This document shows, piece by piece, positions 36,801 to 60,748 of a stretch of 64,000 nt of DNA. The DNA is taken from assembly GCA_946122785.1 (NCBI GenBank), contig CAMGYJ010000002.1, positions 25,952,492 through 26,016,491 of the forward strand, in the 5' to 3' direction. A program made the translations under genes and the position numbers. The notes beneath the pieces were generated by a model. That model had not been told where the DNA came from, made no database searches, and saw only the letters and a program-made list of their open reading frames with translations. How positions within the stretch are numbered: position 1 is the first letter of the stretch; every line of letters begins with the position of its first letter. The stretch comes from Linum tenue. Lineage: Eukaryota; Streptophyta; Magnoliopsida; Malpighiales; Linaceae.

Positions 36801-38054
36801 TGTTGTTGTTGCATTTAGAGGGTGGCCTATGTTTCAGTTAGATGTGAAAAATGCATTTTTGCATGGTGATCTGAAGGAAATGGTGTATTTGGAGCGTCAT
36901 CCAGGCTATACTCTTGGAACCCCTGATCAAGTGTGTCTACTTCATCGATCATTGTATGGTCTCAAGCAGGCACCTAGGGCATGGTTTGACAAATTTCAGG
37001 CTACTGTATTACAGCTGGGGTTTCAGTAAAGCCTGAATGATCCACCCTTGTTCACTAAGTCATCTGCGGCTGGCCTCGTGGTTCTTCTCTTGTATATTGA
37101 TGACATGGTTATTACTAGGGATGATGAGCTTGGCATTCGGCAGTTAAAACAAGGGCTGCACTCGGCGTTCATCTTAAAGGACTTGGGTGACTTGACTTAC
37201 TTTCTTGGTCTTGAAGTTTCTAGCAGCTCTCGTGGGATCCTTCTTAGCCAGCGGAAGTATATTGGTGATCTGTTGAGTGAACACAATGTTGATGAATGCA
37301 AGCCGGTCATCACCCCCATGGAGTTGAATTTGAAGCTTAGTAGGACCTCTGGTGATATGTTGACTGATGGTTCTATTTATCTTAGTCTGGTGGGTAGTAT
37401 AATATACTTATCAGTGACTCGACCTGGCATTTCGTATGCTATTCAGATTGTCATTCAGTATATGGCTCCACCTCGGGTGGATCATCTCGCTGCTGCGCAT
37501 TGGATTTAGAGGTACCTGCATGGTACTCATGACGTATGCATGTTTTTTTTCCTGCTAATGGTTCGCTTGTTTTTCGTGCTTTCTCGGATTTTGATTTTGC
37601 AGGTTGTATCGACACTCGTCGGTCCACCACTGGGTGGTGCATTGAGTTCGGTGGCTCGTTCCTTTCCTGGCATTGTAAAAAGCAGGACAAGGTGTCAAAA
37701 TCGTCAACTAAGGCGAATTATCGCGTTATTTCCGATGTCTGATCCAAAATGGTATGGCTTCGCCGTCTCCTAGGGGACTTTGGTGCCACCTGTGCTCTTC
37801 CCATGGCGTTGTTCGTCGATAACACGAGTGCCATCTAGATTGCAGTTAATGACGTGCTGCATGATCGTACGAAACACCTTGAGCTTCATGTTCACTATGT
37901 CCGGGATTTGGTTCGCGATGGCTCTGTTCACCTTCACTGTGTTCGGACTGAGGATTAGCTGGCCGATCTCTTCACAAAGTCCTTCATGATCGCTCGGCAT
38001 TGGTACCTGTCTAGCAAATTGATGTTTCATCACCAACATCAATTTGGGGGAGGC
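33849..38054 (+). pseudogene. Ty1/copia gag-pol relic
   Basis: Order on the plus strand: gag (NRWKVNDARVRSLLLGSVD near 33990); a Cys-rich knuckle region near 34550-34625; a protease site reading WILDLACFN near 34850, where the usual D-S/T-G triad is lost; GAG-pre-integrase (WHSRLGHPNSGRL, 35290); integrase core (HIDLWGP, RSDPGGEF); RT (QLDVKNAFLHGDL at 36840, SLYGLKQAPRAWF, YIDDM at 37095); RNase H (KQDKVSKSSTKANYR at 37683) to the stop near 38058. Many stops and frameshifts interrupt it, for example at about 34124, 36302, 36736, 37027 and 37508. No 5' LTR or primer site is seen before 33849. Confidence 0.85.
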
Positions 38055-38374
38055 TGTTGAGCAGTGCATGTCGTTTTGGTGTACCTGGGTCATTTTGTAT
38101 ATATGGGTTTACGTATTGTAGTTCTGGACTGTAGAGAGACTGGGTTCTAACTCAATGACCGAGCCCATGCACCCATGCACGAGTGAGAGGAGACGTGCTA
38201 GGGTTATGGGATTTTGGGTATATATACTTTGTGTGTGTGATCGGCGGAACTCAACCTAAACCAAGTGGAATTTGCTTCTTGAAAGTTCAACCTCTCCCGT
38301 GGATTAGTCCTGGCATTCCAGGGATACCACGTTAAATCGGCTTGTGTCATTTAAGTTTCTGTAAGTTGACATGT
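38055..38374 (+). repeat. 3' LTR of the copia relic
   Basis: It follows the polypurine tract tttgggggaggc at 38044-38054, starts TGTTGAGCAG and probably ends near gttgaca at 38374. A tatatatac element lies near 38220. The right boundary is approximate because no 5' copy is available for comparison. Confidence 0.6.
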
Positions 38375-40353
38375 ATCATAGCTTATTTTGTTGTCCGGGT
38401 CTAGGGAGGTAGACTTATGTTTGATGGACCCTCATCCTGTGAACTCAAGATTTGAGATCTATGTATATGGCAAATCAAAGGAGATATATGCATTTGTCTG
38501 GCGGATCTAAATGAAATATGCATATATCTAGTGGATCAAATGGAGATCTAAATAAAATAAAATAAAATAAAAAAGATTTGGTTTATGGAGGATCAAACAA
38601 AGATCTTCATATGGTATTTCGTGTCTCAAAGAGCCCGCCAATACAAGGTGGTTTGGCTTATCAAAATAATCGCTCGAGGAGAGATCACGACGTTCTTGGT
38701 ACCTATCTTGAGGGATGATTGTTTCCCATCCAAATACCACATCAGAAAGGCAAGGAAAATGATACTTGGATTATATAAGTGCCCACCTAATTCCATTAGT
38801 GTGCGGCATTTATGAAAGGTACCCAAAGTGGATTTGACCCCAAGAGGACAATGGCATACTAATAGATCTGGTTCAACATCTATACTTAATCGATTGGAAA
38901 TGATTTGTTTGATCTATTCTAAGAAATCTTCCTCATCTAAGCATTCAAACACAAATAATCTTAACACATTATTCTAAGTGATCATCATATAGGTCATATT
39001 CATTCATAGTCATACATCCAAGCATAAAAGTTCAACAATCCACGAGATTCGAAAACAAAAGTTTAAGAATTCGCATTATGCTTAATAAGCATTATCCGCA
39101 AAGTTTATCGAAGTTCTCAAAAAGTTTCAAAACTTGTTGCTCAGATGACATGAATCACATAAATAGAGAAAACACACGAGCACACACTATGAACACATCA
39201 AAGGCATCAACGCTAGTACCCATACACCCTCCCAACTTGAAGATCACATTGTTCACAATGGAAAACAAGAGAGAAGGGTGGAAATGGTTACCGCCATTAG
39301 TATAAGTGAGGAGAATGGGAGAAGAAACATGGGAGGTTTGAGTCCAAAAAGATAGCAAACATACCACGAAGCTATGATCATTTCATCTAATACATCAATG
39401 ACACTAAGCTACATATGGTTTGGTTTTGTTCTCGAAGGAAGCATATTTTGATATTTAGCTTCTTATTCGCAATCAATATAGAAATTAGAACAAACATAAT
39501 GCAAAATGGATAATCTATTGGGTCTAGATTTCGTGTTGTGCCGGCCATAATTTTTCTCGGTCATTTATTGAATATATTATTACACGTGAGATAGTGTCTT
39601 GCTCGTATTTGTTACCTTTAGCGAAACCAAACACCTACTTAAACTCGGGAAAAAGTCTCTACTCTCTAGGAAAACACATTAACTCGGATGGAGACTCAAC
39701 CTTGAGTAATGCATTGTATTCGTTGATTATGACGTTTATGGACTCGATGAATTGAATGAATTTATGGATTCACGGGTTCCAAGTTGCATTTAGTTTTGTG
39801 GACCATTTCATAAATATTAAAAGTTTAAAGTACTAAAATGTCATACTTCAAAACTTCAGGTATTCAAAAGTAATTGTTGACATAATTTCATGATAAGAAA
39901 ATTAAATTTTAGGCTAAAACATAAAGTACACAAACAGTAAATACAAAATTGTAACTTTATGAAAATCCATTAATCTATTTTATCAATTCTCTAATCCATT
40001 GGATTTAATTCAGATGAATTAAGACTAAATGAATTCGAATTAGGTGCATATTCAGTTGATGTATTCAATGGTTACTTAGCCCGTCTAAGCGTGTTGTATT
40101 GAGTTGAGACGATGCTAATACCAATAATTAGTGGATATTCATATTTGATCGATGTTCAATATGCACTTTGGCTTGTAACTTAACCACAAAAAGGAGAAAG
40201 AATTAGAACCAAATAGACAATAAAATCAATATTTATTGCAATTTTATTCTGAGAAAATACAAATCTTATTTCAATCAATACGCCATACGTTATTTTCTCA
40301 CCTTCAAAATCCCAACTTATCATTTTTTCACTAATTTTCCATTTGATTCTTTT
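38375..40353. other. Intergenic, with Athila-like spacer remnant
   Basis: AT-rich with no gene that I can support. A segment at about 39220-39300 (accctcccaacttgaagatc, cattgttcacaatgg) resembles the ORF-end segment of element E at 21040-21070, so an old minus-strand spacer is present. A short aaataaaataaaataaaat repeat lies at about 38550. Confidence 0.5.
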
Positions 40354-40431
40354 TCATGGGATGTTCCACCAGAAGTAATAGTACCAATAATATTCTGAAA
40401 GCAGAGCTTTCTCATCTTCTATTGGCACCAT
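40354..40431 (-). CDS. Micropeptide copy A, 25 aa, aromatic-rich
   Basis: A minus-strand ORF with ATG at 40429-40431 and TGA at 40354-40356. It begins MVPIEDEKALLSE and ends with a run of Tyr, Trp and Phe followed by WNIP. Two other ORFs of exactly 25 codons (40863 and 45051) encode the same peptide with silent or conservative changes. Relative to copy C, codons 10, 12, 13, 15, 18 and 19 differ silently, and codons 14 and 20 differ aromatic for aromatic. The context before the ATG, gagatcaaaatgg, is conserved. A TATA box lies 69 nt upstream at 40500-40507. I recognise no family. The acidic head and wide aromatic tail could bind a membrane or protein surface, but that is a guess. Confidence 0.65.
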   Translation of the reverse strand: MVPIEDEKALLSEYYWYYYFWWNIP

Positions 40432-40862
40432 TTTGATCTCTAACTTGATTGTATACTTTAGGTTTGTTTTTATGCTCTCTTATCTTTCATTGGTGTGAGT
40501 TTATATATTTGTAGGATTTTGCTGCAGATTCAATTTTTTCAGTTCCCTACAATAAATAAATTTGCCAGTATGCAACAAAGTAACAACAATATTTAGTTTC
40601 ATCGAAGGTTATGGAACTATGACAAGAGTTTTTTCCGGTACACTCCGACTGTGTATGAAACTTGTAACTCTTATTCAAGATTTTTCGATTGTTTTGAGAC
40701 AGCTCATAATACCAAGAGACCATAGAAACTCCTGCCACACAGTTCCCTAACCTTCCATGCATTAAATATTATTGTTCCACATTTATTAATTGTTACATAA
40801 GAATCACTAAAAAAACTCAATCTAAAATAAACACACAATATCCTACAAAGTTGGAGATCAAA
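40432..40862. promoter_or_regulatory. Shared upstream region of divergent micropeptide copies A and B
   Basis: 431 bp separate the two start codons, which point away from each other. TATATAAA on the minus strand at 40500-40507 suits copy A. Copy B has only weak candidates (ttaaatatta near 40763). No longer ORF explains this stretch. Confidence 0.4.
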
Positions 40863-40940
40863 ATGGTGCCAGTAGAAGATGAGAAAGCTTTGGTTTCAGA
40901 GTATTATTGGTACTATTACTGGTGGTGGAATATCTCATGA
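40863..40940 (+). CDS. Micropeptide copy B, 25 aa, aromatic-rich
   Basis: A plus-strand ORF, ATG at 40863 and TGA at 40938-40940. It begins MVPVEDEKALVSE, has the YYWYYYWWW-type aromatic tail and ends in NIS, where copies A and C end in NIP. The last residue change (tct for cca) is the only clearly non-conservative one. The upstream context ttggagatcaaa matches copy A. The sequence diverges quickly after the stop, so conservation is centred on the ORF. Divergent from copy A. Confidence 0.65.
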   Translation: MVPVEDEKALVSEYYWYYYWWWNIS

Positions 40941-41329
40941 AGAATAATGTAATGGTGAAGAGGGGGCGACGGAGGGATCGTACCATTCGAGCCTTTTTTT
41001 CATGCTTTTCCCGGAGGTCTGGAGAAAGCTGCAATCAATAGGGTTTTCCTAGCCCTCCCTTCCCGAAAGGAAGAACGTGAATTTTTTTTCCTTTCCACAG
41101 GGTGAAGCTACAAACATAAGTAAGGAATAATGAAATGGAAATACTGGAGCTGGGAAATTACATATTGAGTTTATAAAAAAAAATGTGTAATCCACTCAAT
41201 AAAGTGTAATAATGTTGATTTTATTGTCTATGAAATTCTACTTATCTTTTCCCTTTTTCGATGGTTATGTTATCATGGTAATTGCATGTTTGAGTTCGAG
41301 TCAAATATACATCTACAAAAGTATATAAA

Positions 41330-42310
41330 GAGGAATATCAGGATCAGATCAATTGAACATGTAGTAGGAAACAAGGTCATGTCCCACAATGACTAACATT
41401 ACTAGTACTGAGCTTATAACTAATAATTGCTATCTAATCAATAAGGAAGGATTTTGAGTGCTAACTAAATGAAGTAAAAATAAAAACAAACTAAGGGAGA
41501 ACCATTCGGGCATTAGAATTAATCTCTCTAGCCAAATCATAAAATTTCAATCCACTTTCTTGCAATTAGCATACTATCAGAAGGATAATGTAACAAAGAT
41601 TTGTGTCTTGGATTCCCCTATTAATCGTCACCTTAATCTAGAGAGTTATTATGATGTTCAATCAATCTTTGGTGATATTTTCTTCTGGGACAAGAATCAC
41701 ACATAAATAATGGAGATCAATCTCATAAATAAATGAAAGACAGACACCACTCAATTCATGAGAGTAACTAAATTAAAACCAAAAACCAATTTAGGGTTCA
41801 TCACTTCATCTACATCTAACCAACTTCATGAGAATTAGCTCATGTGAAGAGAGAAAACAAACACAAGAAGAGAGAAATTTACCACCATGCATCTTCAAAT
41901 TTCTTCAATCTTCAATAAGGGACGTTATCGGTTATTGGTTAACCAAAAGTTGATAAGTTTTTAACGGTTTTAGTTTGGATGAATCCAAAATGCAAACTCA
42001 TAATTTGGGGAGTTCAAAATGGAGTCAGAAAAGCAACAAGAAGTATGAAAATAAGAAAGAAGTCTACTATATACATAAGTTGGAGACTACGCGCACGCTA
42101 ACGGTATTGACTTCGCTAGCATAAACTGTTTTTTATTGATTTTCTGTTTTGACCCACTTTGACTCTGACCCGGTGATAAAAATGGGTCGGCCGCTACAAG
42201 GTACCCGGTTGGAGGTCAAATTGTGTTATTTTTATCTTTGGTTTGCGAAATGCGCCTATTTTCCAATCTTTCTTTTCGCCTAACTCAATTTTTGGAATTC
42301 AAAGTTGAAC
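41330..42310 (-). repeat. Possible old LTR remnant
   Basis: The wording of this stretch (agggttcatcacttcatc, a ctaaccaacttcatgag region, then agagagaaa) resembles the layout of the minus-strand Athila-like LTRs at 9400-9720 and 27620-27700. I could not align it over length. No gene is seen. Confidence 0.3.
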
Positions 42311-42312
42311 AT

Positions 42313-42316
<4 letters not shown>

Positions 42317-42376
<60 letters not shown>
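42317..42376. repeat. (AT)n microsatellite, left block
   Basis: About 30 AT units ending directly at the left end of the MITE at 42377. Further (AT)n runs lie at 42781-42812 and 43091-43128. Confidence 0.95.
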
Positions 42377-42378
<2 letters not shown>

Positions 42379-42778
42379 GGAGTTCTACGGTACCCAGGGT
42401 GAAATCCGGGGTACCGCATACCTTGAGTAAGAAAACGCTATCTAGAACTTGAATTGACTGATCTTTTGGACATGATACTATACTCTAACCCTTAAAGATC
42501 AAAATCTAGGTCTTAATTCTATAAATCTTATACCCCAAGATCAATTTAATTAGAAACAATAATCGACGGTTATGATTCGTCCAAATATAGGCAAAAAAAT
42601 CAATGCACCATCTTAGGGTTTATAGTTTTGATTTAGATAATTAGGACCTAGGGTTCACTCATTAAGGGTTAGGGTATAGTATCATGCCTAAAAATCTTGC
42701 TAATTCGAGGTCTAGATAGTGTTTTCATACTCAAGGTATGCAGTACCCCGGATTTCACCCGGGGTACGGTAGAAGGCA

Positions 42779-42780
<2 letters not shown>
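42377..42780. mobile_element. MITE 1 in a TA microsatellite, 404 bp
   Basis: The terminal inverted repeats are about 60 nt with roughly nine differences. Both contain gggtgaaatccggggtac and gcataccttgagta. (AT)n abuts each end with no other sequence between. No coding capacity. Confidence 0.85.
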
Positions 42781-42812
<32 letters not shown>

Positions 42813-42814
<2 letters not shown>

Positions 42815-43088
42815 GTCAGACTGGTGTGCGTCAGGCGTATACTATACGTCAGGTACTACTAGTGAGATATCTCTATCTAGACCATGAATTAAATCGAGTT
42901 TGGGGTATGATACTATACCCTAACCTCTAATGGATAAACCCCAGGCACCGATTTTCTAAACCCTAACCCGAAGTTTGATTTAATGAAAAACAAAAATTGA
43001 CCGTTGAGATCGGCAGGAGCTCATCTAACCACATCTAACGGCTAGATCACCTGACATATAGTATACGCCTGACGTACACCAGTCATCA

Positions 43089-43090
<2 letters not shown>
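42813..43090. mobile_element. MITE 2 in a TA microsatellite, 278 bp
   Basis: The terminal inverted repeats are about 41 nt (gactggtgtgcgtcaggcgt against gactggtgtacgtcaggcgt in complement). It is flanked by (AT)n on both sides. The core gtacgtcaggcgta is shared with the elements at 31931 and 33525. Confidence 0.85.
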
Positions 43091-43134
<44 letters not shown>

Positions 43135-43640
43135 AGTGTGTGTGAATTTTCACTATATGTTGGATCTAAGTACGACATGTTATTTTAGTGGAATATTATA
43201 TGTTATAACTCATATGTTAGATGAGATTTGATATAATTTATCAGGATAAGTACAATATAATGTCTTTTTCCATATTTGTGGGCTAAACCGGACTAAAACG
43301 GGTGGCCCATAACTCTTGATCAACTAGCTCGACCAGATCCGGGTAAGCACGCGGGTTGACAACCTTGATTGAAAATCAAAATCATTAAACTTCCTATCTG
43401 TTTGATTTCGGTTAAATTCAAAAAATCAAATTAAACGACTCTATATCTAATGAATTGGCTTGTTAATCTTTATATCTTTTTTCTCTAATATTCATCTCTT
43501 GACTGATTATTTGGTGACACACCAACAATTGTGATCAGTCTTTTGCTTAGTAAGAGATCTCAGCAGGCCAACCATATATATTATCAATCTTTTGCAAAGA
43601 AGAAAAGGTAGAACTATAACTCAGAAGATAATAAAATCAA

Positions 43641-44926
43641 GGGCTAATACCACTACAACACCCGAACTATCGCGAAAATGCCACTTGTGTCCTATTGTTT
43701 CCAATATTCCATCTGTGTCCTGAACTATGATACTTTGTGTCATTTGTATCCTGTCAATTTCGTTGACCGTTAAAGATAACGGTTGACCAAACGGTGGTCA
43801 ACGCGAAGTTGACTTTTGTTGACGTGGCAAAAAAAGAGGCTGCCACATAGGTGCCACGTCATTGACCTAATATTTTTTTAATTCAAATTAAATAAAAAAA
43901 ATGATTTAAAATTAAAAAAAATGTAAATTCAATTATGTTATTAAACCAAAATAAAACATAATTTCTATAATTTCCTACCAAAATCCAACCTTCTCCTCTG
44001 TTTCTCCCCTTCCCTGTTTTCAGTTTTCACCACCGATGGGAACTCACAAGGTCGTCGCGTTCGATTCAATTGAAGGGCGTGGGGGTAGTAGATGCGGGAT
44101 CTGGGTTTTTTTCTGCGTTGTTCGCCAAACTCCTTGAGAAGCTGTCGCAAATTCCTCTCTGCGCCATCAATTTCGAATTCCCCGTCGTCTTCTTCCTCGA
44201 CCTAGCCCCTTCTCGATTTTGGTAAGCAATGTGGTTTTTGTATTACAACCAATGTAGGACTGGTCACCGCTGAAGAATCGCAATATGGATTTCAAGTGTT
44301 TCTGGCTTTCTAGGATTTCGAACCTACTGGCTCCAATCGATGGGGCGAGCGGCGGGGGGCCTGCCTCTGTCCATTCTGTCTTTGCCTCAGTCTCTGTTCG
44401 GGCGATTGGAGAAGAAGAGGAAGGAGCGAGGTCGGCGAGGCGCGGCGGGCGAGGTCGGTGAGGCGGGGAGTCGGTGAGGCGGGGATTGGGGAGGCGCGGG
44501 GTCGGCGAGGTCATCGTCGGAAGCGCAGGGTCTCGAAGGGGCGACGGCAGGCGGAATGGGAAAGGGGTCGATGAAGAAGGTGTTTGGTTTGGAGGGTGGA
44601 GGCGGCGTAAGATGAGGGAGGGAGGCAGAGAGTGATGATTAGGGTTTCAATTAGGTTAGGGGAAGAAGAGGTAGGATTTTTATTTTATTTTATATTTTAA
44701 TTATTTCTTTTTATTTTATTTTATTAATATTAGATGGAAAAAAATAATATTAAAAATTCCACGTCAGCTGCCACATCAGTGCTGACTAGATTTTCTGTTA
44801 AAAACTAACGGTCAACAAAAGTCAACACTAACGGAATCATAGTTCAGGACACAGATGGAATATTGGAAACAATAGGACACAAGTGGCATTTTCGCGATAG
44901 TTCGGGTGTTGTAGTGGTATTAGCCC
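43641..44926. mobile_element. Mutator-like element, 1286 bp, perfect 91-bp TIRs
   Basis: Both ends start gggctaataccactacaaca and are identical for 91 bp. The 9-bp duplication TAAAATCAA flanks it at 43632-43640 and 44927-44935, which is diagnostic of the Mutator superfamily. The interior at about 43970-44640 is GC-rich and may be captured gene sequence. The minus-strand frame at 44167-44514 (Pro/Arg-rich start, then HLKSILRFFSGDQSYIGC) is not recognised. No transposase, so it is non-autonomous. Confidence 0.9.
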
Positions 44927-45050
44927 TAAAATCAATACACATTGACTTATAAGTGAAAATTACATATTATTGCTTCATAATCATATTCCTAAACAGGAGA
45001 ATTTTCACTTCCTTATTACATATACTGTTTTCCGCACGTTCAAGCTTTCT

Positions 45051-45128
45051 TCATGGGATGTTCCACCACCAATAGTAGTACCAGTACCACTCCGAAACAA
45101 GAGCTTTCTCATCTTCTACTGGCACCAT
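45051..45128 (-). CDS. Micropeptide copy C, 25 aa, aromatic-rich
   Basis: A minus-strand ORF, ATG at 45126-45128 and TGA at 45051-45053. It begins MVPVEDEKALVSE and ends WYWYYYWWWNIP, so eight or nine of its last twelve residues are Trp or Tyr. A TATA box (TATATAAAC on the minus strand, 45216-45223) lies 88 nt upstream, and the same TATATAAACTC string precedes copy A. There is no signal peptide and no Cys. The ORF is too short for most gene finders. Expression is not shown by sequence; the case rests on three-way protein-level conservation. Confidence 0.65.
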   Translation of the reverse strand: MVPVEDEKALVSEWYWYYYWWWNIP

Positions 45129-45215
45129 CTTGATATCCAACCTGATCGAAATCTCTATATTTCTTCTTTTCTTGTGTGTGAGATTTGAGGCAGTATAGTG
45201 GTCAAGTTCGATGAG

Positions 45216-45223
45216 TTTATATA
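45216..45223 (-). promoter_or_regulatory. TATA box of micropeptide copy C
   Basis: TATATAAA on the minus strand, followed by CTC as in copy A (40500-40507). Spacing to the ATG would leave a leader of roughly 55-60 nt. Confidence 0.5.
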
Positions 45224-47368
45224 GTGGTAATGGTGGGATTGATGATTTAATTAATGAAAATAAGGTTGTCTTTATGGGGAATTAAAGAGAAGGTTATTGA
45301 ATTGATGAACTATGAAACGGGTGAAAGAGGCGTTGTTGTTGTTGTTGTTGATAGTCAATGTCATTAGGGGATGAATCTCACCTATTGGATTGATTTTTTA
45401 GGGGGGGAAGTGAAACTGTAAGCAATTCAGTTAGATAAATTTAATACTGGGCAGTTACCACATACCTGTAGCATGATTAGAAATCTTCATGTTATATTAA
45501 TTAATAATTAGAACCAGTTTCCTATTAATTTTGTTGAACAGGTTTAGTTATGGTAATGAAAGAAATTTGATATGGATAAGTTAGCTCATTTTAAACCCGC
45601 AAATTTGGCTTAGGGTTAGTTTGCATCAGGAATTCTAACAGATCAATTTGACCTAATTATTTCGTTTGAGACAATCCGGACAAATTGATCAGTTTGGCAT
45701 CACATAATTTACTATTTAGATGAAGCAATTATGCTTGAGAAATTTTAAATTGACTCATTTTGAGGTAATTACACTTGACTGGGGTGGAGACAAACATTTC
45801 GAATTGACTCATTTTATAAAGTGGGAATTAGAAAAATTGTCTTGTTTTTCGATTATCTTTCCAAACGAATAATCTCTTTGACAACAGAGTAGAGTTCCTT
45901 GTTTAAGAGGGTGTATGGCATTTGCTAGTGGAGGGTTGATGGCAATTTTGGATTTTCCTGAGTTTTGGGTATGGTTTATAAAACATTGTTATTTTCCGGC
46001 TTAAGATAGGGTGCATAACCTTAGGGTGCATAATTATGAGTAACCAAATCTAGACCCTTATTTTAAGTGGCTGCAGATCTAATGGTGGAGAATTAAAGGA
46101 ATTTATTTTCCATAGTTTTCTTGATTGGATCATATCTTCTTCATTCTAACTCGGATTTCAATTTTTTACACAGATGGAACGAGTTCGTTGTACTCTACAA
46201 AATGCTATCCATTTTCAATATTTTTTGAGAATTTTTTTTTTTTCATACCTCTCTTTACCAACTCCATACCATATAGTATCTCTTTCGTTTTTTAGCCGGT
46301 TTCGAAAATTTTTGCACAGAATGAATGATTTAATCATGATCTATTGGTTTTCAAATTTTTCTGGCTGAAAAAAGTTCATACCTCTCGTTACCAATTTCAT
46401 ACCATATGATATGCTCTTATTTAATACCAGTCAATACCATATGACATAAACTGGTAATAACTGACAATTTTTTTTTGTTCCAAAAAATATCAAAGTAGAT
46501 ATCATTTTGAAGAGCACAATTAATCTGATCTAACTGTGCAAAAAAATTAAATTCCGACTTAAAACGAATGAGAAATCGTACGTTAAAGATTAAGGAAAGG
46601 AAAATTAAAAGTTTTCGAGAAAAGAGAAAGAGGCGCTGATATGACGAATTCTAATTGGATTATGCATCAGGTTATAGCATCATAAGAGTAATTTCCTAAG
46701 GTTTTTTCCTATAAGATAAAAATTGATGAGTGCTCCAATTTGAGTAATTGGTTGGTCTTGCTTAATTTCTCCGTACTCATAATTAAGGAATTAGGAACTC
46801 TTCATTCCTTGTTAATTTTCGATGTTCTTAATTTTTCTCTATCGTCTAATTGGAGGTTTCGTCATCACTGCTTTTGATCAAAGTTAGGTTTCATGATGAC
46901 ATGGCACGATTTTCTTTTTTTCTTATGGAAGATCAGGCTAAATCGCACCAACAAAACATACTAAGAATAACTTTCGCTTTGATACTACTTATTGAATTTC
47001 AAATTGGTATATTCTACTGCAACTTGTAGAATCTAATTGGCTAAACTAAAACATCTAAAATATTCCCTCACCTCTGAGTCTCCACCAGTCCACCGTATAA
47101 ATCAGTTTTTCTTTCTTTGCTTTACCTCGCGTCATGAAACCAAATGAGGATGGTTTCTACTTTCGAAAACCCAAATGGAAACCACACTAAAGCGACTTAA
47201 AAACCATGCCACAACTTGCCACGAATCCATTGTCAAATAGAGTGTTCCCTATTTGTCCACAATGCTTCTTCCATTATTAAAGGGTTGGTGCTGTATTGAC
47301 AATTAACAGATGATGGATTTGCGGGTACCAATTGTTCCGGTTGCTTGCGAACCTGCAGCAGCTGTTGC
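45224..47368. other. Intergenic stretch with local repeats
   Basis: AT-rich with no gene that I can support. It contains a short gttgttgttgttg run near 45337 and two direct copies of a catacctctc-ttacca-ccataccatat segment at about 46245 and 46375. Related strings near 46020 (gggtgcataacctt) and 46660 (cataa / aggttatagc) are roughly inverted and could be the ends of a decayed MITE. Confidence 0.4.
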
Positions 47369-49612
47369 CTACTTTTCTGGGAGCTTCTCCAACAACTCCG
47401 GAATCACCTCAAAGAGGTCCCCAACAAGCCCATAATCAGCTACCTGGCACACAAAGCCGTCAAGAATGCTAATCAACCATAAGAGTTCCAAAGCGTTTCC
47501 TGTTCTAGCATAGTTATGACGATGGAACGATCAGACAACTTTCGCTTCCTCGTTCATGAAAGAAAATGGACTAGGTAACTGCATTTAGGTTGTTGTTCCG
47601 AGTGTACTTCTCACCTTGAAAATTGGTGCATCTGAATCTTTGTTAACTGCTACTATCACCTTGGAATCTCTCATCCCAGCTACATGTTGAATGGCACCTG
47701 ATACTCCAAAAGCCAGGTATAGCTCCGGGGCAACAATCTTTCCAGTCTGGCCAACCTGGAAAGAAGAACATTCGCCACTTAAAATGGCCCAGTGAAACAG
47801 ATAGAAGTGCCGTCAAGTGCCATTACTTTGACATGGATTCTAAGAGCAGCTTTCCTAACTGAATTTATTCAAGGAATACGAGATTCTGGCTACTAAAAGC
47901 TAACTGCATACACTTATCTTTCTATTTTCTATTTTTGTTTTAAAAAACTACTGCTTACACTATCTAGTGCAGGAATTGTGATCTAACTAATTGAGACGAT
48001 ATCCTGACATAAAGCAGGAATCAGAAGCAGTACCTGGAGGTCATTTGGAACAAATCCTGCATCGACAGCAGCTCGAGTGGCTCCAACTAAACACAAACAG
48101 AAAACATGTTCAGAAAATCCTATGGACGGGGAACCAAATACGGATGAAGATAAACCTGTTAGTCCAAGAAAAAGAAAGGAAGTTTCCCAATGTTGGATGC
48201 AAAAGAAACAAGCCACCACCACTTCAAACTGTTACCTGCTGCACCAAGTTTTTCTGCAAGCTTCTCGATCATTTTGAAGTTCTCCGCGCTTTTCAGGGCT
48301 CTACCTCCCGTGACCACAACTTTAGCATTTCCTAGATCAGGGCGTTCCGTCTCCTGTGATGTGAGCTTCACATATCTAGACTTCCTTATGGAATCTGTAA
48401 TGCAATAGTATGAATGTGTCACACATATGTCACATAGCCATGAAATGAAACTGTCATGACATCGACAATGAGCAAGTAATCCATAGACTGTACAAGCTAT
48501 CAGAAGCTCAAAGGTGACCGCATGGACTTCAAGAATAATTTCTAGTACCGGAATAAGAGAAGGCAAACAAACCTTCATCAAAGGCCGAGAGATCAACCTG
48601 CGAAATAGGAGCCTTTTCGGCCCTGAAGTCTGCTGCAACTGTAGGTTCAGGAAAAGATGTCGATCTAACAGACAACAAACAAGGGCTGTTCCCAGTATAC
48701 CGGACAGTAGAGAGGGCATTCCCAGCATAAATCGGCCTAACATTTAAAATACAAAACCAGATAAAGCAAACAACATTTCACACAGTGTGGCAGTCAATGG
48801 CAATCAATCAAAGGTTCTAAGATCTTCAGACCAAAGAAAGCATTAAACTTGAACAACTTCCAACACAAAACACACAAGCTGAAACCAACCTAACAAACTG
48901 ATTCGGTCCAGAAATGCTAACAACATCCGTAATTGGAGACACATCCAAAAGGGCAGCTGCTCGGGGAAGCACATTTTTCCCAAACGAGTTCGATACAGTA
49001 ACAATGTGGGAGTAGCCTTCTCTCTGCTGGACTAACTGAACCAATCTAGCCCAAGGCTCTGCTAGATGATGAACAAAATGATCCGAATCAGCTACAATCA
49101 CCTGCCACAGAACATCAACACATCATAGACCCTCACAGGAAAGGGAAGCTCGCGAAATGGGCAAACCGTGAGAATAGTTGAAGAAAGAGTGCCTGCGAAA
49201 TGGAGGGGTGGCATGAGGCAGCATGTTCGGCGGCGTCTTGAAGCGAAGAACCTGTCCCCGCCAATAGAACGGATACGGAGTTGCCCTCACCCAAGTACTT
49301 TGCAGCTTCTACTGCACTCAGAGTTGGCGCTTTCACGGCGCCTCCTTCGTGCTCCCCGATCACTAACGTGCTAATCTGTTGGTTTAGAAAAGGACCGATT
49401 CAATTGACGAGAGGGTGGGAGAGAGACTAGAGGAAGTAAATTCAGAAGCCATTTCCGCGGAACTTAGCACTGTTAAGACGAAATAGCAACTTCTCTGATC
49501 AGTTACTTCCTTCAGAGAGAGACATAGATCTTACGGATCCGGCGATGGAGGAGAGAGATGAGAAGCGCGGTCTGAGTCTGAGGGGCACTCTGAGAGCTCG
49601 AACAATAGCCAT
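47369..49612 (-). CDS. ETFA: Electron transfer flavoprotein subunit alpha, mitochondrial
   Basis: ETF alpha pairs with ETF beta in the mitochondrial matrix, binds FAD and passes electrons from acyl- and branched-chain dehydrogenases to ETF-ubiquinone oxidoreductase. Eight coding exons (49612-49535, 49375-49193, 49101-48890, 48736-48573, 48394-48236, 48086-48034, 47755-47615, 47443-47369) give 1065 nt, 354 aa, the usual plant length. The Arg/Ser-rich first exon ([20 protein letters not shown]) suits a transit peptide. The core shows [54 protein letters not shown] and the ETF-alpha signature [13 protein letters not shown], and it ends in [12 protein letters not shown]. Intron 2 appears to start with GC at 49192-49191. 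The exon phases all join in frame. Confidence 0.95.
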
Positions 49613-56457: not shown

Positions 56458-58091
56458 TTATATCTTCCCCACCGATCAATTTTGGGATTCAGTTTGATCT
56501 CTCGCCGGCGATTGGTGCAAAGCCTCCCGTATCCGATCAGAATGAAATCGTTTCTGACAAATTACAGGGCTCTGGAGTAGACTGGGGAGGATCGTCGGGA
56601 AAGAGAGGCCAGCCAGGCCAGGCCGGCGGTGGATATTTTGGTGCTGAAGGCAAATTCAAGTTGGATTGCTTACGACGTCGTTTCTTTCAAACTGATCCTT
56701 AAGGTTGTCGTTTAGAGGAGTTCACTGTCCAATCAGATCAAGCCCAATACCACAGTCCACGATGTTGTGGATCACGGGCTGATTGGGCTTAAAATACGCC
56801 AACTGGACTTGTGGGTGGGCCAATACACCCAAAAACCAGAGCTTGCCAGGCGGACGATGATACCTGCACCAGCGAAATTGGTCGGCGATGATCCGTTGCG
56901 TCAGTCCAGTTCTTCACACATTACCGAACCACAATTGCCGCATCGCAACGCAACGCAGGGATGGGAGGAGGACAGAGTAGAAGAAGCCAAAGTAAGGAAC
57001 ATTCTGATGCGGGCGGCGTCATCTGCCGGCCGGCCGCTGATCGATTGGCCCGAAGAATCACAAAGCTTTGCTGTTTCGAAGGATTGTGATTTTAATGGCG
57101 ACAGGGAGTGGCTAGCTGTTGCTGACGACGCTCGCCCGAATAAAATTTCCCTTCCTGTAGTTGTCGTGGCTTTTTGAAATTATGCCGAAACCGAACACTC
57201 AAGTTCCGATGGTCGTTGCCAGCGGCGAGTTCAACTTATCCATCTATTTCAGTGGGGCCCGTTCATGGCAAAGTGAAGCTTTCTTTCTTTTCTCACCTAC
57301 TTCCACCATAAACTGCCCTCCCCTTATGCTGCCGATTCTTATATCATATCCCCCAGCTTCACTGGTTTTCTCACTCGGACAATTTCCTGGTTTTCTGCTT
57401 AGCCAGAGAAGGAGCGCAGACTTAATTCACTAAGCAGAGGTAGACCAAGAAGAAGAAGAAGGGGATACATCTGCATTTCTCCTCTACTCTGCCGAGGTTT
57501 GCTAAAAATTGTTGCTTTTGATTGGCAAAGACAATTGCGCCTTTGATCTTATTTGGGAATTTATGTCGTTTACTGAATTTGTATGCTTCCTGGTCTCTGA
57601 AGAATGTGTGTCCCCGTTGCATGTTAATTTGTTCATAGGCAGTACAGCTTTTGAAGTCATCTATTACCCACCAACAGCTCAGTTAGTTAAAATTTGGTTT
57701 CATCCGCTTTAAGCCATTAGAACTTTAGAGTGCTTTATTCCTAAAATTCAAAACATGATCATTCCTCAACCTTTTCCTTACTTACCATTCAGTTTCCAGG
57801 TATCCTCTAATGGGTAGCGTGATTTTCTGGCATGATTCTGCTAAGAAATAGTGCATGTATGCTCATCAGCTCATTAGACTGGCTCGTGGTTTCTGACTTC
57901 TGATATGCTTTGCCTATCTCTGTATCTCAGTCTAATGGGCATGGGGTGTATTGTTATATAATACTTATTATTGTGCTAGGATTCGATTGTGGGCTCTGCT
58001 TTGTTGTTTGTTTCTCACCGAGAGAATTATGCAGTTCAATTGAAATATTCCCTATGCCCTGAACTTCTCTATGTGATCCTCCTCTTTGCAG
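56458..58091. promoter_or_regulatory. Divergent upstream region and 5' leader intron of the transporter gene
   Basis: Between the AP5Z1 start and the transporter ATG. The sequence just before 58092 (ctctttgcag) is a splice acceptor directly abutting the ATG. A plausible donor lies near 57495 (gccgag then gtttgc), which gives a leader exon around 57420-57494 and an intron of about 600 bp. A 136-codon frame at 56767-57177 has no recognised domain. Confidence 0.5.
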
Positions 58092-60748
58092 ATGGCGGAT
58101 CAGCATGGAGGTTACAACGTGGATGAAGCTCTCCTCTCCGTGGGGTTTGGAAAGTTCCAAATCTTTGTCTGCCTTTATGCTGGTATGGGTTGGATTTCAG
58201 AAGCAATGGAGGTGATGATTCTCTCGTTTATTGGTCCATCGGTGAAGTCTCAGTGGGATCTAAGTGCCAATCAAGAGACCTTACTGTCTGTAGTGGTATT
58301 TTCCGGCATGTTACTTGGTGCATACATGTGGGGTGTGATCTCGGACAGATTGGGAAGGAGGTAAGTGCGTGCTTCATGATTCTTTCCTCTGGCAGGAGTT
58401 ACTTTATTAAGTAAATAAAGGCTTGTAGTTCCTAGTTAGTGCCAATTTGAAGTGGTAATTGCATCATTGTCCCTTTTAGTGTCTTATTAATTATTTTATA
58501 TGTGTATGCTGTTCACGTATTACTGATGTGACTTTGGTGCTTCTTTCCTATTTCATGCCGGCGCCTTACTGGATTTTGATTTTGTTCTTTACTGCTTTTC
58601 TAATGTCTGTTCAGGAATGGGTTTGTGGTCACAGCATTCGTTACGTCTCTAGCTGGTTTTCTTAGTGCCTTTGCCTGGAACTATGTTGTTTTGCTCATTG
58701 CTCGTTGTTTGGTCGGTGTTGGCCTTGGAGGAGGGCCTGTACTCTTCGCCTGGTTCTTGGAGTTTATACCTGCAACAAACAGAGGCATGTGGATGATTAT
58801 TTTCTATTCATTTTGGACGGTTGGAACTATTTTTGAGGTTGGTTTGGCATGGGTAAGTTCATGAAATCTCATAACTCCTTAATTTTAGTTTAATCAGTGC
58901 AAATTTTATTTCCTAATTAGTCACTTTAGTGGTCACTAATGCCCTATATGGTAATATTCAGATCATTATGCCAAGATTGGGTTGGAGGTGGCTGGTTGGT
59001 CTTTCTGCTCTCCCTTCATTTGGTCTCCTTGTATTTTACCCTCTGACACCTGAGTCCCCAAGGTACCTCTGCCTTAAAGGTAGAAAAGATGATGCTCTTA
59101 GGGTTATGGAAAAAATAGCAAAATTGAATAAGAAGGAACTGCCTCCTGGTGTCCTTCTTAGCGATCGTGAAATTGAGCTACAAAGACAAATCTCGAAGCC
59201 AGAGGCATCTGCCACTGATTCGCTTTCTTCTGCCCCTAGATGGAAAGATTCTGACTTGGGTGTCATTGAGACTCTACGGATGTTGCTTTCTCCAAGATTG
59301 ATTCGCTCAACCATACTCTTATGGTTCATATTCTTTGGGAATGCATTTTCTTACTATGGCCTCGTTTTGCTCACTACTGAGTTAAACCGTAAATCTCATT
59401 GCAATTCGAACGGAACACAATCCAACAACAAGTCGGATGCTGGCGTTGACTATAAAAATGTTTTCATTACTACTTTAGCAGGTTTGCATTTTAATAACTG
59501 CATCTCTTCTCTATTGTTTTGCATCTATCTATCTATCTATTCAAGAAAACATTGCTGAGTATGCTACTATTTTTCATTGTCAGAATGTCCGGGCCTCTTA
59601 ATATCAGCTCTCCTCGTTGATAGGATTGGCCGCAAAATTTCTATGGCGACTCTGTTCTTCATTTGTGTCGTGTTTGTTCTGCCACTGGTCATCCATCGAT
59701 CTCCACTTGTGACCACCATTCTTTTATTTGGGGCAAGAATCTGCATCACGGGAACTTTTTCAGTTGCCTCTCTAATGGCTCCGGAGGTAAATGTTTTCTT
59801 CTCTTTCATATGAAAATTGGTTATTATGGCATTTACTTTTACCAACCAAAAAACCAGAGAACACTCATGATTTTCCCCTAACATACCATAGTTCAAACAT
59901 GGAAATGAATCTGACATTCCGCCAATTGCTCTACTTTAGCAGCCATCTGTCAGGATTATTGAAATGCCCTTTCTTAATCTCTTCGTATGACTATTGCATT
60001 CTGATGCTGGCCATTACTAGTTGGTGAGCCCAGTCTTTTGTGGGTCAGATCCTATATCAGAACTTGGCATGTGCTCTTTGAAGCTGTGGAAGTCAACTGA
60101 GGACAGTTCTTGCGGTAGATAATCATTGTTGGGGATATAGGTGTTAACTCAGACACTATATTACGTTCTTGCACTAGGCGAGCCTGGAAGGGCATCTAGA
60201 CTGCTAGATTAATTTACTTACCATGCCTGTCTCAGTTTGCTGGCATTTCATCCAATTGTCTAGGATAGCAATAGAACGTTTTGTTGTTTCCCCTCCATAA
60301 TTGATATAAACATGAACTAGCTGGACACATCTGAAAATCTCAGGTTTGAATTCAGTGGTCTCCGGTGGTACTTAATCATGGACTGAGCATAGAAATCAAC
60401 ACTTGCTCCACTTTAAAATTATGTTAATCCTCCTGATTTGGCGTTAAGGAGGGTGGTAATCTTTTTCTTGTATTGCATTTTTTGTTGATGAAGCTGTACC
60501 CAACATCAGTCAGATCAACCGGTTACGGAATTGCAAACTGCATGGGCAGAATTGGTGGGATGGTATGTCCATTTGCGGCTGTGAAGCTGATGGAATCATG
60601 TCATCAACGCGAGGCGCTACTGTTGTTCGTAGGTGTGATTCTTGTTGGGCTGTTTTCAGTGCTGTTGATTCCTTATGATACCAAGGGCCGCGAATTGACA
60701 GAGAGCATAGCGAGTACAAAAAACGAGAAGCATCGCCAAGCGGTCTGA
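58092..60748 (+). CDS. OCT7: Organic cation/carnitine transporter 7-like MFS transporter (nicotinate transporter type)
   Basis: A major facilitator with 12 expected membrane helices. The Arabidopsis relative is known as OCT7/NIAP and linked to nicotinate transport. Five coding exons: 58092-58360, 58615-58852, 58962-59481, 59584-59786, 60494-60748. They total 1485 nt, 494 aa, in phase throughout. It starts [20 protein letters not shown]. The loop 2-3 motif is SDRLGRR at exon 1/2, with the equivalent VDRIGRK in the second half. Further marks are [52 protein letters not shown] and [13 protein letters not shown] hydrophilic central loop lies between helices 6 and 7. The first ATG after the leader acceptor is used. 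The substrate is inferred from the family. Confidence 0.92.

Follow-up and report, generated by a model that had tools for sequence, protein, structure and literature searches.

The conserved DVL domain is represented by a Pfam model, FEP/IMA (IRON MAN) genes are readily missed by annotation, the C-terminus of IMA peptides is aspartate-rich, ENOD40 peptides have approximately 12–13 residues, and CYSTM tail-anchored peptides carry a cysteine-rich C-terminal module. In bacteria, trp-type leader peptides are encoded by very short ORFs with codon runs for one kind of amino acid, and attenuation is coupled to transcription. PMC10638237 lists ROT4/DVL as small, non-secretory peptides at the plasma membrane, FEP/IMA as small peptides of the nucleus and cytoplasm, and ENOD40 as a tiny ORF in a transcript formerly held to be noncoding, with a non-secretory peptide. 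Conserved-peptide upstream ORFs (uORFs) include the sucrose-control peptide of the S1-bZIP genes, described in PMC8795868 as having 28 residues with a conserved C-terminal part.

The 64,000-nt stretch of DNA analysed here (the window) contains three intact ORFs (copies A, B, and C; Table 1), each of exactly 25 codons followed by TGA, at the positions given in a first-pass annotation of this DNA. On sequence grounds, they probably constitute a real micropeptide gene family, because the peptide sequence was kept while the surrounding DNA decayed, and the copies are probably old local duplicates of one very short gene. Copies A and B stand head to head, with 431 bp from ATG to ATG; no fourth copy was found within the window. 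In a six-frame scan of the window, the three copies scored 139–162 and the top match elsewhere scored 30, a gap indicating that their likeness is more than chance. As the first-pass annotation had described, the translated peptides share the conserved front MVPxEDEKALxSE and a tail consisting largely of Trp and Tyr. The tail has 9 aromatic residues in 12, a composition unlike that of the plant micropeptide families known to us. Of all 12-residue stretches in the window that contain at least eight Phe, Trp, or Tyr residues, those with at least seven Trp or Tyr occurred only inside the three ORFs, and the remaining stretches were Phe-rich. Simple-sequence expansion was rejected because Tandem Repeats Finder (score 30) reported no array over any ORF and the tail holds silent changes.

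Table 1. Features of the three loci in window coordinates
Feature	Position	Strand	Remark
Copy A ORF, MVPIEDEKALLSEYYWYYYFWWNIP	40354..40431	-	25 codons
Copy B ORF, MVPVEDEKALVSEYYWYYYWWWNIS	40863..40940	+	25 codons
Copy C ORF, MVPVEDEKALVSEWYWYYYWWWNIP	45051..45128	-	25 codons
Copy A TATA box candidate, TATATAAACTC	40497..40507	-	putative promoter role
Copy C TATA box candidate, TATATAAACTC	45213..45223	-	putative promoter role
Copy B TATA-like string, TTTATTAA	40782..40789	+	weak
Copy A leader end, conserved	40432..40451	-	
Copy B leader end, conserved	40843..40862	+	
Copy C leader end, conserved	45129..45148	-	
3′ region of A, common to B	40141..40295	-	AATAAA at +106 and +117, TTGATTTTATT at +125 after stop
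3′ region of B, common to A	41155..41308	+	AATAAA at +258, TTGATTTTATT at +275 after stop
Copy C 3′ block, part one	44936..44971	-	
Copy C 3′ block, part two, beyond element	43610..43640	-	last 9 bases are one target-duplication copy
Mutator-like element, 1286 bp	43641..44926	.	terminal inverted repeats of ~91 nt, identical

The predicted products resemble ROT4/DVL in being small and apparently non-secretory plant micropeptides; however, they have 25 residues, whereas ROT4 has 53 aa according to PMC10638237. The DVL domain was not detected in a Pfam search in which the three peptides matched 0 families up to an E-value of 10. FEP/IMA peptides are likewise small, but the C-terminus here is aromatic, with no Asp in the last 12 residues and hence no Asp-rich motif. 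Although the tiny ORF and the apparently non-secretory peptide recall ENOD40, the length of 25 residues and the sequence differ from those of ENOD40 peptides; furthermore, a search of positions 38000–48000 against Rfam up to an E-value of 1 gave 11 hits, all below the gathering score and located on or beside TA repeats, and none of them was named ENOD40. A peptide encoded by a pri-miRNA (miPEP) would share its transcript with a miRNA hairpin, and the Rfam search yielded nothing for this region beyond those 11 sub-threshold hits. Unlike CYSTM peptides, all three peptides lack cysteine, and they have no Pfam match.

The coding nature of the ORF is well supported by the way in which the sequences diverged. 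Between A and C, 12 base differences fall in 10 codons, of which 6 differ silently and 4 are replacing. Two of the replacements exchange one aromatic residue for another through two base changes each (Tyr14/Trp and Phe20/Trp), as had been noticed in the first pass, and of the 54 two-base changes that TAT or TTC can undergo, only 4 have this aromatic-for-aromatic outcome. The remaining replacements are Ile4/Val and Leu11/Val. When dN and dS were compared across copies, dN was lower in three of three pairs (dN/dS of 0.084/0.294, 0.102/0.784, and 0.066/0.824), and the sense frame had the highest BLOSUM62 total among the six frames in every pair. In simulations with an equal number of random base changes (20,000 runs per case), residue changes as few as those observed arose in 0–0.3% for A–C and B–C and in 6–15% for A–B (P = 0.06–0.15, not significant); when scored by BLOSUM62, the figure for A–B was 0.3–1.6%. 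The A–B base changes number 4, 1, and 3 at the first, second, and third codon positions, with no enrichment at the third, and frame +1 has 4 residue differences for this pair, the same as the sense frame. The conservation signal is strong for A–C and B–C and weaker for A–B. On a star tree, 8 silent and 7 replacing changes were counted versus 17–23% silent expected (one-sided binomial P = 0.008, 0.017, and 0.05 when 22%, 25%, and 30% silent is assumed), all selection tests being based on only three paralogues of 25 codons.

These divergence patterns also bear on the possibility that the copies are relics, in other words, a once coding or noncoding segment that was duplicated locally and whose frames are open through common origin and chance. 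We consider this decidedly unlikely: the sites are few, B and C each have insertions in their 3′ part, and B lacks the TATATAAACTC TATA string, but the residues were kept despite high silent and flanking divergence, and 0 of the 3 copies contains a premature stop codon, whereas one arose in 49–72% of the copies subjected to random base changes. An antisense frame of 26 codons is also open, with an ATG and equal length, in all three copies, and begins MGCST... in A and C; an MGC start would suit N-terminal acylation. That this frame is the gene is extremely improbable and was rejected because it diverges more than the sense frame (6, 8, and 9 of 25 residues versus 4, 4, and 2 of 26 positions for A–B, A–C, and B–C); moreover, B lacks the MGC, and the TATA string, leader, and AATAAA all lie on the sense strand. 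Selection on the peptide, as read in the first-pass annotation, is supported by dN < dS, by the best-scoring frame, and by the aromatic swaps, and is complicated by this open antisense frame and by codons 2–9, in which the three copies show zero silent changes (5.5–6.0 of approximately 14 silent sites lie there; P = 0.010–0.024). This hints at a constraint on nucleotides as well in codons 2–9, such that some of the conservation may act at that level.

The lack of silent change in codons 2–9 would be compatible with a conserved RNA element: either a hairpin in which the tail codons base-pair with the sequence around the start codon and hide the AUG, or a site at which small RNA acts or from which it is produced, since A and B are arranged as inverted repeats with 132-nt arms that are 83% complementary. 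We regard these explanations as very unlikely. RNAalifold predicted a 14-pair helix (columns 20–33 with 62–75), including one pair changed on both sides. The minimum-energy folds of both A and C contain this helix, and for B it appears in the centroid structure of the isolated ORF. However, it is absent from the minimum-energy fold of B, two of its pairs are broken in C, one towards each end, and the fold energies of A, B, and C are weakly low (z = −2.6, −1.5, and −1.0 with the leader; −2.6, −1.0, and −1.7 for the ORF alone). When the peptide was fixed and the codons were random, at least 10 start–tail pairs formed in 30%, 21%, and 15% of cases (A, B, and C), and when each copy's own codons were permuted with the peptide kept, in 80%, 31%, and 34%. 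The frequency of helix pairs under recoding indicates that the peptide itself accounts for much of the helix. On the helix, fold-energy, and recoding results, structured RNA was rejected as the sole cause, and the start-to-tail hairpin is a weak lead.

In agreement with the first-pass annotation, TATATAAACTC precedes A and C, the end of its TATATAA lying 69 and 88 nt, respectively, before the ATG, and the leader end is common to all copies, with the last 20 bases matching at 16/20 (A–B), 15/20 (A–C), and 14/20 (B–C). The string has no occurrence in the window other than these two. In each copy, the start codon has A at −3 and G at +4. Downstream, the reported drop of similarity past the stop codon holds for the first 40 nt (13/20, 7/20, and 8/20 matches in the first 20 nt and 4, 5, and 5 in the next 20) but not further on: A–B similarity, absent from the first-pass annotation, resumes approximately 59 nt past the stop in A and 215 nt past it in B, the shared region thus lying approximately 150 nt farther away in B. 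The score of this homology was reached in 0 of 1000 shuffles (blastn E-value 2.7e−7). AATAAA adjoins a TTGATTTTATTGTCT block in A and B, suggesting that the transcript ends in this shared region, which in A is a probable poly(A) region. The corresponding block of copy C is split by the 1286-bp element, which we assign presumptively to the Mutator superfamily by the rule of a 9-bp target duplication (TAAAATCAA, at 43632–43640 and 44927–44935). With the element removed, the match of this block to A was reached by 2 of 1000 shuffles and that to B by 85 of 1000, the latter not significant. Origin of the copies as an internal segment of a transposon, a possibility raised in the first pass, was rejected: the pairwise shared stretches are 95–132-nt cores comprising the ORF and near flanks, plus the 3′ region in A and B, no common terminal repeats around the copies were seen in pairwise comparison, and the nearby transposon lies within the 3′ part of C, where it inserted.

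The loss of similarity directly past the stop codon would also fit a cis-acting ORF, in which ribosomes would stall, either while translating the Trp/Tyr run or at the stop codon through the nascent aromatic tail, and thereby determine the fate of the transcript or of a main ORF joined by splicing from a distant downstream exon. Length and C-terminal conservation are similar to those of conserved-peptide uORFs, such as the 28-residue example in PMC8795868. However, such uORFs precede a main ORF, and inspection by eye of the unspliced DNA (1.5 kb downstream of A and B, 3 kb downstream of C) revealed no ORF common to the copies; the longest downstream ATG ORFs were 53 aa (A), 50 aa (B), and 115 aa (C), the last within the inserted element. 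Together with the AATAAA-containing 3′ region common to A and B, this makes a cis-acting role unlikely. Another reading, highly improbable in our view, is that the ORF senses how well the cell is supplied with aromatic amino acids. In design, it would then be a eukaryotic equivalent of the bacterial trp leader peptide, which it resembles in its very short ORF and runs of codons for one kind of amino acid and from which it differs in having no structural gene closely downstream. The ribosome would slow at the nine Trp/Tyr/Phe codons in twelve when charged tRNAs, for amino acids that all derive from the shikimate pathway, were scarce, and where it stood on the start-to-tail hairpin would decide the fate of the transcript; Trp/Tyr/Phe and TAT/TAC swaps, as observed, would be permitted.

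For the expression, localization, and molecular action of the peptide, we infer a model to which we give an even chance: the genes give rise to short mRNAs for a micropeptide that is not secreted and that works, through its acidic front and aromatic tail, at the surface of a membrane or at a docking site. The transcript would be unspliced, with a leader of approximately 40–60 nt, a single 25-codon ORF, and a 3′ UTR ending near the AATAAA/U-rich block. The product would lack cysteine and an evident signal peptide; by composition, the 13 front residues are acidic and the hydrophobic part is C-terminal, which does not correspond to the N-terminal hydrophobic signal peptide that characterizes secreted plant signalling peptides. 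On the Wimley–White interface scale, the summed values are −10.8 to −12.5 kcal/mol for the tail and +7.4 to +8.5 kcal/mol for the front. The conserved front would remain soluble, and the tail, judged from its composition, may sit in the membrane interface or dock on a partner protein, with positions 14 and 20 requiring aromatic character rather than an exact residue. If expressed, the three loci would represent a very short, free-standing plant protein-coding gene family below the usual length for annotation pipelines and a direct test case for the number of such genes still missed, and the aromatic tail offers a clear handle for experiments on membrane or partner binding.

The first-pass statement that no known family was recognized holds for Pfam, for PDB, where the peptides had no match, and for papers searched by peptide strings, which gave none either. 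In papers searched by topic, the titles and abstract beginnings of the matches listed describe no such peptide. Viral contigs yielded 27 pattern stretches, of which 0 were confirmed; genome contigs gave 0 matches in one search and 102 pattern stretches with 0 confirmed in another, and because these contigs are prokaryotic, the lack of a match is no surprise. The peptide family may already be known under some annotation. Separately, 10 of the 54 stop-to-stop ORFs of the window were submitted to Pfam, and 5 of these 10 matched something.

The three 25-codon ORFs (copies A, B, and C) lay exactly where the first-pass annotation had placed them, and neither scanning the window in six frames nor searching it with a DNA profile revealed a fourth copy (next profile match, E 0.87). 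A and B are arranged head to head, with 431 bp separating their start codons, and C is on the same strand as A, 4.7 kb away. Over the 78 nt of the ORF, A and B shared 70 bases, A and C 66, and B and C 68.

The earlier proposal of selection on the peptide was borne out most clearly in the comparisons involving C, and dN was lower than dS in all three pairs (Nei-Gojobori; A-B, 0.084 and 0.294; A-C, 0.102 and 0.784; B-C, 0.066 and 0.824). Changes at codon positions 1, 2, and 3 numbered 2, 2, and 8 for A-C and 2, 1, and 7 for B-C, mostly at third positions, whereas those for A-B (4, 1, and 3) did not favor third positions. When equal numbers of changes were placed at random (20000 runs, with either ancestor and both transition biases), no setting produced as few residue changes as observed in more than 0.3% of runs for either A-C or B-C. 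For A-B, the support was weaker, at 6–15% of runs by residue count and 0.3–1.6% by BLOSUM62 score. The sense frame had the highest BLOSUM62 total of the six frames in all three pairs; by plain difference count, frame +1, in which there is a stop, equaled it for A-B (4 each). A star tree gave 8 silent and 7 replacing changes, against a silent share of approximately 17–23% expected by chance (binomial P, 0.008 at 22%, 0.017 at 25%, and 0.05 at 30%). Furthermore, the Tyr14/Trp and Phe20/Trp swaps between A and C are each two-base changes, and of the 54 ways to alter two bases in TAT or TTC, only 4 exchange one aromatic residue for another. The combined evidence for peptide selection, drawn from 25 codons and three relatives, is good but not overwhelming, and the ORFs are very probably coding and under selection.

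RNA folding suggests another reading, in which the conserved element would be a helix pairing the start codon region with codons 14–19. RNAalifold predicted 14 such pairs, one of them changed on both sides, and the helix was present in the best folds of A and C; however, two pairs are broken in C, one towards each end, and the best fold of B lacks the helix, which for this copy was confined to the centroid obtained when the ORF was folded by itself. Because random-codon versions of the same peptide often pair too (at least 10 start-to-tail pairs in 30%, 21%, and 15% for A, B, and C, respectively), much of this pairing is a consequence of the peptide. Codons 10–25 hold all 8 of the silent changes (chance 0.010–0.024), a hint that the front half of the RNA may be constrained. 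An unlikely alternative coding frame is the antisense one, which is open for 26 codons in all copies (opposite strand; 40354–40940 and 45051–45128) but is more divergent among them than the sense frame. It begins with MGCST in A and C, which resembles an acylation motif.

The putative promoter string described previously, TATATAAACTC, was confirmed upstream of A and C, its only two occurrences in the window (approximately 0.07 expected from base composition), with 69 and 88 nt, respectively, between the end of TATATAA and the start codon. B has nothing beyond a TTTATTAA-like string there. The leader ends are alike in all three copies, as had been noted. Similarity was said to drop after the stop codon; it does vanish directly past the stop, but reappears further 3' between A (+59 to +213) and B (+215 to +368), with an alignment score of 70 that 1000 shuffles did not approach (at most 35). 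In this stretch, AATAAA lies a little upstream of TTGATTTTATTGTCTAT, an arrangement consistent with a plant poly(A) region. The block is approximately 150 nt further from the stop in B than in A, and B contains an extra stretch that, by its look, may be plastid-derived. In C, the matching sequence is interrupted by a 1286-bp element; with the element removed, 2 of 1000 shuffles scored as high as its match to A and 85 as high as its match to B, so the case for 3' homology of C is weak. The copies may instead be upstream ORFs of a main ORF further downstream, perhaps on a spliced exon, but no common downstream ORF was seen.

We treat A, B, and C as free-standing micropeptide genes. Each would produce a short mRNA, the peptide would be synthesized in the cytosol, and beyond its acidic front the aromatic tail would lie at a docking site or the surface of a membrane (interface energies were computed on the Wimley-White scale). 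Action in trans via the tail has roughly an even chance of being correct. The peptide had no match in Pfam, PDB, prokaryote genomes, or IMG/VR contigs, its strings were absent from the literature searched, and Rfam gave nothing above threshold over 38000–48000; the earlier remark that no known family was recognized thus holds as novelty relative to these collections. Non-secreted plant micropeptides are themselves an already known kind (PMC10638237).

Features of the window, in window coordinates
Feature	Position	Strand	Remarks
Copy A	40354–40431	-	25 codons
Copy B	40863–40940	+	25 codons
Copy C	45051–45128	-	25 codons
Extra stretch in B 3' region	40955–41100		Gap in A and C (alignment)
Inverted-repeat arms	42345–42527/42630–42812 and 42781–42854/43049–43122		
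Mutator-like element	43641–44926		1286 bp; ~91-nt identical terminal inverted repeats and 9-bp target duplication
Electron transfer flavoprotein alpha-subunit gene, several exons	47200–49530	-	Pfam on 48162–48743 only; remainder by eye
Sugar-transporter/MFS-type gene, several exons	58077–59558	+	Pfam on 58917–59555 only; remainder by eye

A 9-bp target duplication is a Mutator-like signature, and by this feature and its terminal inverted repeats the element interrupting C is classified as Mutator-like. Its ORF (44170–44646, minus strand) had no Pfam match, and it might be a Pack-MULE with a captured gene fragment. Its interior is G+C-rich, with a 16-nt repeat at 44444–44510. Nested, MITE-like inverted-repeat elements flanked by TA microsatellites occupy 42309–43134. 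By its content the window resembles DNA of a flowering plant: Pfam recognized 5 of the 10 ORFs tested, comprising an exon for electron transfer flavoprotein alpha, one resembling a sugar transporter, and fragments of retroelements (integrase and reverse-transcriptase domains); the flavoprotein gene is a useful synteny anchor.
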